In this document: positions 21,860 through 24,414 of the stretch, piece after piece
How the letters are laid out: each line of letters opens with the position of its first letter
Numbering within the stretch: position 1 is the first letter of the stretch
NCBI RefSeq assembly: GCF_005849285.1
Contig: NZ_CP040517.1
Location: forward strand, 2,858,501 to 2,922,500
Direction: 5' to 3'
From: Luteithermobacter gelatinilyticus
Lineage (GTDB): Bacteria > Pseudomonadota > Alphaproteobacteria > Sphingomonadales > Emcibacteraceae
Length of the DNA stretch: 64,000 nucleotides
Program-made: the position numbers and the translations under genes
The notes under the pieces: generated by a model
The model's input: the letters and a program-made list of their open reading frames with translations, nothing else
The model's database searches: none
Told to the model about the DNA's origin: nothing

Positions 21860-22501
21860 ATGCTGGAGACCTTTCTCGCAGCCTTCATTACGTTGTTTGT
21901 GGTGATTGACCCGCCGGGCATCGCGCCCGTCTTTGCGGTCATGACCAGCGGCACGGACGCCGCGTACAAGCGAAAAATGGTCTTCAAGGCGACGCTGACC
22001 GCCGCCGTGATTCTGCTGCTGTTTGCCTTTCTTGGCAAAAGCCTGCTCAGCGCGCTGGGCATCAGCATGTCCGCCTTCCGGACTGCGGGCGGTTTTCTCC
22101 TGTTTCTGATCGCCATGGAAATGGTGTTTGAAAAACGCACTGAACGACGTGAAAAAAAGGCCGAGCCCGACCGGTTTTATGATGCGCTGGAAGAAGATCC
22201 CGACGATATTTCCGTCTTTCCACTGGCAATCCCCTTTCTATCGGGCCCCGGCAGCATCGCCACCATCATGCTGCTGATGAGCGAGAACCACGGCCATTAT
22301 CTGGACCAGGCGCTGATTATCGGCGCGCTGCTGGCCACACTGCTGTCTGCCGTGGTAATCCTGCTGCTGGCCAGCCGTATCATTGAATTTCTGGGCCATA
22401 CCGTCGCCAATGCGGTCACCCGTATTCTCGGCGTCATCCTCGCCGCCCTGGCCACACAATATATGTTTGACGGCATTCGCACCGCCTTTTTTGCAGCATA
22501 A
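21860..22501 (+). CDS. MarC family integral membrane protein
   Basis: 213 aa with six predicted membrane segments and the family signatures VVIDPPGIAPVFAVMT and PLAIPFLSGPGSIATIMLL. The two related halves give an inverted-repeat-like topology. MarC proteins were once thought to give multidrug resistance; the function is unproven. It is last in the yggT-yggU-folD-marC set, and a perfect inverted repeat lies 16 nt after the stop. Confidence 0.92.
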   Translation: MLETFLAAFITLFVVIDPPGIAPVFAVMTSGTDAAYKRKMVFKATLTAAVILLLFAFLGKSLLSALGISMSAFRTAGGFLLFLIAMEMVFEKRTERREKKAEPDRFYDALEEDPDDISVFPLAIPFLSGPGSIATIMLLMSENHGHYLDQALIIGALLATLLSAVVILLLASRIIEFLGHTVANAVTRILGVILAALATQYMFDGIRTAFFAA

Positions 22502-22516
22502 ATAAAAGACGAAAAA

Positions 22517-22555
22517 TTAGCGCATAAGACAAAACTGCCTTTTGAAATGCGCTAA
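22517..22555. promoter_or_regulatory. Inverted repeat TTAGCGCA...TGCGCTAA, possible enhancer site
   Basis: Two perfect 8-bp arms are separated by 23 nt. The centre (about 22536) is about 119 bp upstream of the sigma-54 -12 element at 22655, the distance usual for an upstream activator-binding site. It could instead be a weak marC terminator, but the long loop argues against that. Confidence 0.5.
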
Positions 22556-22640
22556 CTTTAGGTTTCTCCTTTGTCTCCTCCTTCTTAAAAATTTTAAATA
22601 AATGTTATTTTACAATATGTTATAATTTTCTTCAAAAAAC

Positions 22641-22656
22641 TGGCACGTCTCCTGCA
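22641..22656 (+). promoter_or_regulatory. Sigma-54 promoter
   Basis: TGGCACG-TCTCC-TGCA has the invariant GG (22642-22643) and GC (22654-22655) separated by exactly 10 bp, a near-consensus RpoN promoter. AT-rich DNA lies upstream (22590-22635), suitable for IHF bending. Transcription should start near 22667, 50 nt before the small ORF. Confidence 0.75.
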
Positions 22657-22716
22657 TTTGATAAGGCAACACGAAAGACACACCAACGTTTCGCATAATG
22701 CCAAGGAGATGTACTA

Positions 22717-22845
22717 ATGGAAATCTGGACCCTGATCAGAAGCACCAAAAAATCCGACACCCCCGCGTCAAAAGCTGTCCCGTTGAATGACCGCCATGGC
22801 CGCCGGCTGCGCCGCTGGCGGCGGGCCGCCCTTATCGCGGCCTGA
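22717..22845 (+). CDS. 42-residue basic small protein under a sigma-54 promoter
   Basis: ATG 22717 follows a strong ribosome site AAGGAG at 8 nt. The peptide starts MEIWTLIRSTKKSD, has a short neutral middle, and ends in an arginine-rich helix (HGRRLRRWRRAALIAA). It has no signal peptide; the C-terminus is amphipathic and cationic, which would fit membrane association, nucleic-acid binding or RNA interaction. The unit is complete on its own: sigma-54 promoter, 50-nt leader, ORF, and a strong terminator 27 nt after the stop. I do not recognise the family. It could also be a leader peptide or the coding part of a dual-function small RNA. Confidence 0.65.
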   Translation: MEIWTLIRSTKKSDTPASKAVPLNDRHGRRLRRWRRAALIAA

Positions 22846-22872
22846 CCCCCTCACCCTCACCTGATCTCTTCC

Positions 22873-22899
22873 GCCCGGCCGCTGTGCCGGGCTTTTTTT
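22873..22899 (+). terminator. Strong rho-independent terminator
   Basis: GCCCGGC-CGCTGT-GCCGGGC is a perfect 7-bp GC stem followed by seven T. It ends the sigma-54 small-gene transcript at about 230 nt. Confidence 0.92.
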
Positions 22900-22968: not shown

Positions 22969-23006
22969 TAGAGTGAATTGTAAATAGGTTGGCTCAATTC
23001 ACTCTA
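22969..23006. repeat. TAGAGTGAATTG palindromic repeat (solo, well preserved)
   Basis: Perfect 12-bp arms TAGAGTGAATTG and CAATTCACTCTA flank a 14-bp centre: the reference 38-bp form of the family. It lies 14-32 bp before the MATE start, so it probably occupies that gene's leader. Confidence 0.92.
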
Positions 23007-23037
23007 AAATACCACCACCATGACAGGACTGCCGGAC

Positions 23038-24414
23038 ATGCCGAGTGACAACTGGTTCAGGGATCGACTCAAACGACAGCTTAGCGAGCTGCTTCGTCTG
23101 TCTTTTCCTATCGTTCTGCAACGCCTTGGCATCATGTTGATGGGCATTGTAGACGTGATCATGGTCGGCCGGTATTCGGCGGAAGAACTGGCCTATGCCG
23201 GCATTGCCAATGTGCCGGCCTCGACCGTGATTGTGATCGGCATCGGCCTGCTCATGGGGGTGATGGTGCTGTCCTCCAATGCCCTTGGGGCGCAGCGCTA
23301 CCGGGAATGTGGGCGAATCTGGCAGCGGGGCATGGTCTATGGTTTGGGCCTGGGAATATTGGCCGCGGGCATTTGTCTCGCCGGTGAAGAGATTCTTCTG
23401 ATGTTGAATCAGGCCCCGGAACTGGCCCGCGGCGGGGGTGCGGTGCTGAAGGTACTGGCTCTGGGTATGCCGCTGATCTGTTTGATGCTGGTGTGCAGCT
23501 TCTTTCTGGAAGGCATCGGACGGCCCCTGCCTGGCATGATTTTCATGATATTGGCCAATCTCCTGAACATTTTCCTGAACTGGGTGTTTGTCTATGGACA
23601 TCTGGGCTTCGACCCCATGGGAGCCGTGGGCTCCGCCTGGGCTACCACCAGCGTCCGCCTGTTTCTGGTCGTGGCCCTGGTCAGTTATATCCTGACCATG
23701 AAAGACGCGGATCAGTTTGGCATCCGCCAAAAGGTAGATCTGACGTGGCGCAAATGGAAACGTCTGCGCCATATCGGATATGGCGCGGGTCTGACCAACG
23801 GTGCGGAGCATCTGGGGTTTGTGGTACTCAGCATTTTTGCCGGCTGGATCGGTACCATCGCCCTTGGTGCCACCACCATTGCCCTGAACATTTTGGGCTT
23901 GCCTTTCATGATGTCGGTCGGCATTGCAGGGGCGACTGCCGTACGTGTGGGACTGGCACACGGTCGGCGGGACTGTCGCGACATGATGTTGGCGGGCACC
24001 GCGGGGCTGGGCCTCAACATCCTGGTCATTTTTCCCGTGGCGCTTGTGATGGGGATCTTCGCCCCGACGCTTGCCCTCCTGTTCAGCACTGAGGCGGAAC
24101 TGATCCGAGAACTGATTCCGCTGGTGGGACTGGTCAGCTGGTTATTGGTGTTCGATACCAGTCAAGCGGTGATGGGCAATGCGTTGCGTGGACGCCAGGA
24201 CATCTGGTTTCCCACACTGATCTATATATTTGCCTATAATGTGGTACAGATTCCATTGGTCTGGGTGCTGGCGTTCCCGCTAGGCCATGGCACAAGGGGA
24301 CTGTTTGAAGGCATTATTTATACCAGCATTCTATCCTTTATTTTGCTCAGTTCGCGCTTTTTTTATCTGTCGCATGCGGATTTACAACGGGAAAAACACC
24401 AAGCACTTCCCTAG
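23038..24414 (+). CDS. MATE family efflux transporter
   Basis: About 458 aa, twelve hydrophobic segments in two halves. Family signatures are LSFPIVLQRLGIMLMGIVDVIMVGR near the N-terminus (quoted in part: IVDVIMVGR) and GIAGATAVRVGLAHGR in the second half. MATE proteins export drugs or metabolites in exchange for protons or sodium. ATG 23038 follows ACAGGA at a plausible distance; ATG 23020 is also in frame but has no ribosome site and is only 14 nt from the palindromic repeat. Substrate unknown. Confidence 0.93.
   Translation: MPSDNWFRDRLKRQLSELLRLSFPIVLQRLGIMLMGIVDVIMVGRYSAEELAYAGIANVPASTVIVIGIGLLMGVMVLSSNALGAQRYRECGRIWQRGMVYGLGLGILAAGICLAGEEILLMLNQAPELARGGGAVLKVLALGMPLICLMLVCSFFLEGIGRPLPGMIFMILANLLNIFLNWVFVYGHLGFDPMGAVGSAWATTSVRLFLVVALVSYILTMKDADQFGIRQKVDLTWRKWKRLRHIGYGAGLTNGAEHLGFVVLSIFAGWIGTIALGATTIALNILGLPFMMSVGIAGATAVRVGLAHGRRDCRDMMLAGTAGLGLNILVIFPVALVMGIFAPTLALLFSTEAELIRELIPLVGLVSWLLVFDTSQAVMGNALRGRQDIWFPTLIYIFAYNVVQIPLVWVLAFPLGHGTRGLFEGIIYTSILSFILLSSRFFYLSHADLQREKHQALP

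Follow-up and report, generated by a model that had tools for sequence, protein, structure and literature searches.

Results

Organization of the locus

The stretch of DNA analysed here (the window) comprises 64,000 nucleotides of the genome of Luteithermobacter gelatinilyticus (G000), a single contig of 3.15 Mb. Within it, an intergenic gap of ~500 bp separates a MarC-family gene (21860-22501) from a MATE transporter gene (23020-24414; Pfam). A compact unit at 22517-22899 on the + strand occupies most of this gap and has the following features:

22517..22533, + strand: predicted PspF site 1, TTAGCGCATAAGACAAA; left half TTAGCG strong, right half weak
22539..22555, + strand: predicted PspF site 2, CTTTTGAAATGCGCTAA; right half CGCTAA strong, left half weak
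22517-22524 and 22548-22555, + strand: arms of an inverted repeat, TTAGCGCA and TGCGCTAA, read directly
22556-22640: AT-rich stretch, 78% AT against a window mean of 45%
22610..22622, + strand: weak IHF-like site TTACAATATGTTA, two mismatches to WATCAANNNNTTR
22640..22656, + strand: sigma-54 promoter CTGGCACGTCTCCTGCA (CTGGCACG-TCTC-CTGCA, -24/-12), kept in six genomes
near 22667, + strand: predicted transcription start, placed from the position of the sigma-54 promoter
22703..22709, + strand: ribosome binding site AAGGAGA; GGAGA is invariant across six genomes
22717..22845, + strand: ORF of 42 codons encoding 42 aa, MEIWTLIRSTKKSDTPASKAVPLNDRHGRRLRRWRRAALIAA
22873..22899, + strand: intrinsic terminator, a hairpin (22873-22892) with a 7-bp GC stem followed by seven Ts

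The repeat, the AT-rich region, the sigma-54 site, the ribosome site, the 42-codon ORF and the seven-T terminator had all been listed in an earlier, sequence-only reading of this DNA, and each can be read directly where that reading placed it. Any one of these parts alone is weak evidence, being common by chance; perfect 8+8 inverted pairs with gaps of at most 40, for example, occur 138 times in the 64 kb window, or ~0.8 times per 380 bp. We regard the unit as real because its parts are conserved in order across six genomes, and not because of any single part. Separately, an inverted repeat, AGAGTGAATTG-N14-CAATTCACTCT, at 22970-23005 lies directly 5' of the MATE start codon (23020) and resembles a repressor operator for this efflux gene.

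Conservation within the Emcibacteraceae

Orthologous ORFs of 41-42 aa are present in five further Emcibacteraceae genomes, giving six in three genera. The relative in G001, a member of another genus of the family, was found by its peptide (E 8e-9); it follows a MarC gene, precedes a MATE gene and lies behind the sigma-54 site CTGGCACGCTTCCTGCA. Weak matches in G007 and G024, from the third genus, proved to be real, each being a 41-codon ORF that begins 49 nt 3' of a sigma-54 site. A profile built from the four members then found G022 (E 1.5e-13) and G002 (E 2.4e-9), both also behind sigma-54 sites. Profile E values over the six run from 1e-9 to 1e-24, the four best belonging to the members used to build the profile, with G022 and G002 outside it.

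In all six copies the ATG is preceded by a GGAGA ribosome site and, at a distance of 46-60 nt, by a sigma-54 site, with a pair of activator sites further upstream, and the order of promoter, activator sites, ribosome site and ORF is the same throughout, with near-identical spacing. Conservation is concentrated in three blocks, namely the activator region, the -24/-12 element and the ORF; it is weak in the spacer and falls to background in the 3' flank. Because identity is high in these three blocks and low elsewhere, a protein is favoured over a structured RNA as the product. Nucleotide divergence within the ORF is 32-49% among the pairs counted. The same MATE transporter gene comes next in five of the six genomes; another ORF intervenes in G002, where the distance to MATE is 3.6 kb. 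The ORF is likewise followed by a terminator-like hairpin in G001, G007 and G024, and in G022 a GC-rich hairpin is followed by a poor T tract. This comparison, together with the presence of rpoN in the L. gelatinilyticus genome, bears out the proposal of the sequence-only reading that the locus is a regulated sigma-54 small-gene unit.

The gene appears confined to part of this group of marine alphaproteobacteria. Outside the family, searches covering 248 genomes from the order and 385 from the class returned just short Arg-rich chance matches, and none was found on the plasmids and phages searched. A related-locus search with a two-sequence alignment found no relative, and in the other family genomes inspected the small gene is absent upstream of MATE. 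When the promoter-plus-ORF pattern was run over genome contigs it matched 19 stretches, three of which encode the protein (those of G022, G007 and G024).

The ORF and its predicted product

The six ORFs are intact in the same frame, pN is lower than pS in 14 of 15 pairs, as fits a coding sequence, and alternative frames are interrupted in nearly all six genomes. Of the 133 differences counted over three separate pairs, 58 fall at third codon positions, against 44 expected; the excess is not significant in any single pair. This conserved frame under purifying selection argues for a protein-coding gene, with evidence that is moderate because the ORF is short.

The predicted protein follows the pattern M-x-[IF]-[FW]-...-P-[LIV]-...-[HY]-[GSA]-R-R-x-R-R-x-x-R over 41-42 aa; it has an aromatic N-terminus and an Arg-rich tail with the conserved signature HGRRxRRxRR. 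The earlier impression that it matches no recognised family holds: Pfam, NCBIfam and PDB gave no match and PHROG gave matches at chance level only. Specifically, Pfam and NCBIfam indicate no homology to PspG, and none of the six members matches Pfam DUF1127 at E values up to 10. No stretch is long and hydrophobic enough to span a membrane. An amphipathic N-terminus like helix alpha0 of PspA was also sought; neither the N-terminus nor the tail has a helical moment better than that of shuffles, and we therefore make no claim for an amphipathic helix. The AlphaFold model (two helices, pLDDT 64.5) is of low confidence and too uncertain for use.

A sigma-54 promoter shared in type with pspA

The promoter CTGGCACGTCTCCTGCA has the spacing and sequence expected of a sigma-54 promoter, with GG and GC separated by the canonical 10 nt and a near match to the consensus TGGCACGNNNNTTGCW. 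Its only departure, CTGC instead of TTGC, recurs at the pspA promoter of the same genome, so that the CTGCA variant is common to both. In pattern-based genome-wide scans, the sigma-54 pattern TGGCACGNNNNYTGC has 11 matches in the genome, compared with three for a reversed control, and TGGCACGNNNNCTGCA (TGGCACG-N4-CTGCA) occurs exactly twice in L. gelatinilyticus and twice in G001, each time at pspA and at the small gene. In each of the six genomes the best IHF-like match is found 29-30 nt upstream of the -24 element (p = 0.011 for the summed mismatches). IHF is known to help looping at E. coli psp promoters (PMC3709507), and the match here is weakly suggestive of a similar aid.

The window contains one other near-consensus sigma-54 site, CTGGCACGCTGTTTGCT, at 3605-3589 on the - strand. 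Directly after it is a long GC-rich hairpin of ~15 bp (region 3605-3480, - strand; z = -2.95, no shuffle folding as well). This region lacks a convincing ORF and has no Rfam match, it lies downstream of a flagellin-like gene on the opposite strand, and a sigma-54-dependent small RNA is possible there.

The psp locus and PspF

In L. gelatinilyticus, pspF is divergent from pspA, pspB and pspC, and one of the sigma-54 sites of the genome drives pspA, divergent from this enhancer-binding protein gene. The assignment of pspF rests on TIGR02974 (488 bits; cut-off 444). Its product is 52% identical to E. coli PspF, and its DNA-reading helix is nearly unchanged (LTYHQFRALLKKH vs LTYHQLRHQLKKH), as would be expected if the organism has a PspF regulon. 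All six carriers of the small gene have pspF, which is found in 24 of 32 family genomes; the small gene is found in only six of the 32 and is therefore dispensable. Within the psp operon, L045:5436-6009 also encodes a second PspC-like protein, shorter at 84 aa, and a 90-aa protein that matches the PspB C-terminus weakly, scoring below the cut-off.

Predicted PspF sites upstream of the promoter

The perfect 8+8 inverted repeat is present as described earlier, but it is not a single operator. We rejected that interpretation because its arms are the outer half-sites, TTAGYG and CRCTAA, of two adjacent 17-bp PspF-type sites, and because complete or inner half-sites are present in G022 and G002. 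These half-sites match TTAGTGTAATTCGCTAA, in the pspF-pspA gap of E. coli K-12, which we take to be a PspF site, as well as sites at Emcibacteraceae pspA promoters, which carry site pairs across the family (for example, TTCACTAATTAATAGTGTATTTCACTAA). These matches point to PspF as the most likely activator. Site 1 has counterparts at the same place in G001 (TTAGCGAAAAACAATAA), G007 (TTAGTGTAAAAAGCTAA) and G024 (TTAGTGAAAAATACAAA), and site 2 has counterparts in G007 (GTGGTGTAAATCACTAA), G022 (TTAGCGAAAATTGCTAA) and G002 (GTGGTGCAAATCACTAA), starting 22-23 bp after site 1. Sites of the TTAGYG-N5-CRCTAA type upstream of the sigma-54 promoter are clear across the orthologs and half-good in the window, where each has one degenerate half; better copies stand in the orthologous promoters (TTAGTGTAAAAAGCTAA and GTGGTGTAAATCACTAA in G007, TTAGCGAAAATTGCTAA in G022).

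The half-sites are enriched where they would be expected. TTAGYG/CRCTAA hexamers number 10 in the six 60-bp activator regions, compared with 0.27 expected and a maximum of three in 2000 mononucleotide shuffles; there are none at nine other sigma-54-like sites of L. gelatinilyticus and one at its pspA site. When the PWM was trained solely on pspA promoters from genomes lacking the small gene, five of the six small-gene promoters beat shuffles at p <= 0.003. The window promoter (p = 0.034) is only modestly unusual, its best-scoring site lying in the AT-rich spacer, and one unrelated sigma-54-like site reaches an equally high score because it is AT-rich. A scan for CTAA-N(75-104)-sigma-54 site returned three places in the genome: pspA, the small gene and one other. 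This third place (L184 / L030; G000:C1:2283483-2283597) precedes a gene for a secreted-looking Asp/Asn-rich repeat protein and lies ~2 kb from the gene for another, non-PspF enhancer-binding protein.

Discussion

Based on the comparison of these six loci, we propose that the unit is a small-protein gene, monocistronic and controlled by PspF and sigma-54 as a distal target. We consider this probable as a claim about regulation and coding, which is separate from any role for the protein. The sequence elements, their conservation, the conserved ORF and a psp locus with a near-identical type of promoter are observed in the genomes, and from them we infer PspF binding, induction and translation of the small gene. 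The sequence-only reading rightly implied an enhancer-binding activator, which can now be named as most likely PspF, the activator of the phage-shock response to membrane damage in bacteria; the predicted signal is therefore inner-membrane or proton-motive-force stress rather than the unspecified stress or developmental signal that it had allowed.

In the proposed mechanism, inner-membrane stress would cause PspA to release PspF, which would bind both sites within 22517-22555. Looping of the AT-rich spacer, perhaps aided by an IHF-induced bend at 22610-22622, would bring PspF to the sigma-54 RNA polymerase held at 22640-22656. The transcript would run from about 22667 to 22899, and the 42-aa product would be made alongside PspA, PspB and PspC.

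Control by an enhancer-binding protein other than PspF is improbable. The genome has nine strong enhancer-binding protein matches, PspF among them, plus one partial and two weak, and the PspF-type sites in the window are imperfect; yet the half-sites match those at E. coli and family pspA promoters, are missing from nine other sigma-54-like sites of this genome, and recur as better copies in orthologous promoters, such as TTAGTGTAAAAAGCTAA and TTAGCGAAAATTGCTAA. That the product is instead a sigma-54-dependent sRNA, ~230 nt long and reaching to the terminator, in which the ORF is incidental or one of two functions, we judge improbable as well. Such an RNA would suit a short transcript with a strong terminator, and in E. 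coli the sRNA PspH is annotated just downstream of pspG, but it is the ORF that is conserved, the leader less so and the 3' part not, and ORF length and ribosome site are constant in the six genomes. RNAalifold gives no supported consensus structure and Rfam no match over its gathering score; on these grounds an sRNA-only reading is disfavoured. A functionless chance assembly of promoter-like and ORF-like parts, which the commonness of the single parts might suggest, is scarcely credible, being already contradicted by the constant order and near-identical spacing despite 32-49% divergence in the ORF.

The role of the protein is a separate question. The product may be a small basic Psp accessory whose aromatic N-terminus and HGRRxRRxRR tail bind either a Psp protein or the acidic surface of the inner membrane, a speculative assignment that we hold tentatively and at less than even odds. 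The main rival, rather unlikely in our view, accepts PspF control but has the protein bind RNA. It draws on the Arg-rich tail, and it is the main rival because Arg-rich small proteins elsewhere bind sensor kinases or RNA: among small Arg-rich proteins of the DUF1127 family, CcaF1 is reported to bind RNA and others to bind the membrane sensor kinases PhoR and SsrA (PMC12501420). Against it, no member matches any Pfam family, DUF1127 included, and PspF control points to the inner membrane. Like the small protein, DUF1127 proteins (CcaF1, Agrobacterium SDPs, YjiS) are small (often <50 aa), Arg-rich and common in Alphaproteobacteria; the small protein differs in lacking a Pfam DUF1127 match, in its HGRRxRRxRR signature and in its predicted sigma-54/PspF control.

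The closest parallel to the proposed arrangement is E. coli pspG, which is likewise unlinked to the psp operon and has its own PspF site and sigma-54 promoter for one small protein. PspG is a membrane protein of ~80 aa (CDS 243 bp), whereas the small gene encodes an unrelated 42-aa Arg-rich protein. PspF has binding sites at both the pspA and the pspG promoter, with one site at pspG compared with the two predicted here (PMC3709507). In its two adjacent predicted PspF sites, AT-rich spacer and -24/-12 element, the small-gene promoter resembles that of pspA in E. coli and across the family; unlike pspA, it has no divergent pspF, and its site starts are ~22-23 bp apart compared with 20 bp at most family pspA promoters. 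In E. coli, PspF is described as having a single target beyond the psp operon, namely pspG, and Enterobacteriaceae are the only group in which the Psp response has been described as PspF-controlled (PMC9239133). The passages searched in a further report mention pspF-linked operons in Alphaproteobacteria and show no such small gene (PMC11237479). The control logic of sigma-54, PspF and an orphan target is known; we did not find the protein family or this target described in the literature searched.

We tentatively suggest, again with the odds somewhat against us, that the product is an unrecognised phage-shock component: an Arg-rich micro-protein, specific to this lineage, that PspF would induce together with PspABC and that may tune the PspA-PspF-PspBC circuit or help to coat the damaged inner membrane, a role comparable to that of PspG but filled by an unrelated protein. 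The locus is an example of a small gene found through its promoter anatomy and missed by family models, and it offers a single short peptide with which the working of Psp helpers can be put to the test. If our proposal is correct, it would provide a second, unrelated distal target, in Alphaproteobacteria, and would mean that the PspF regulon recruits lineage-specific small proteins.
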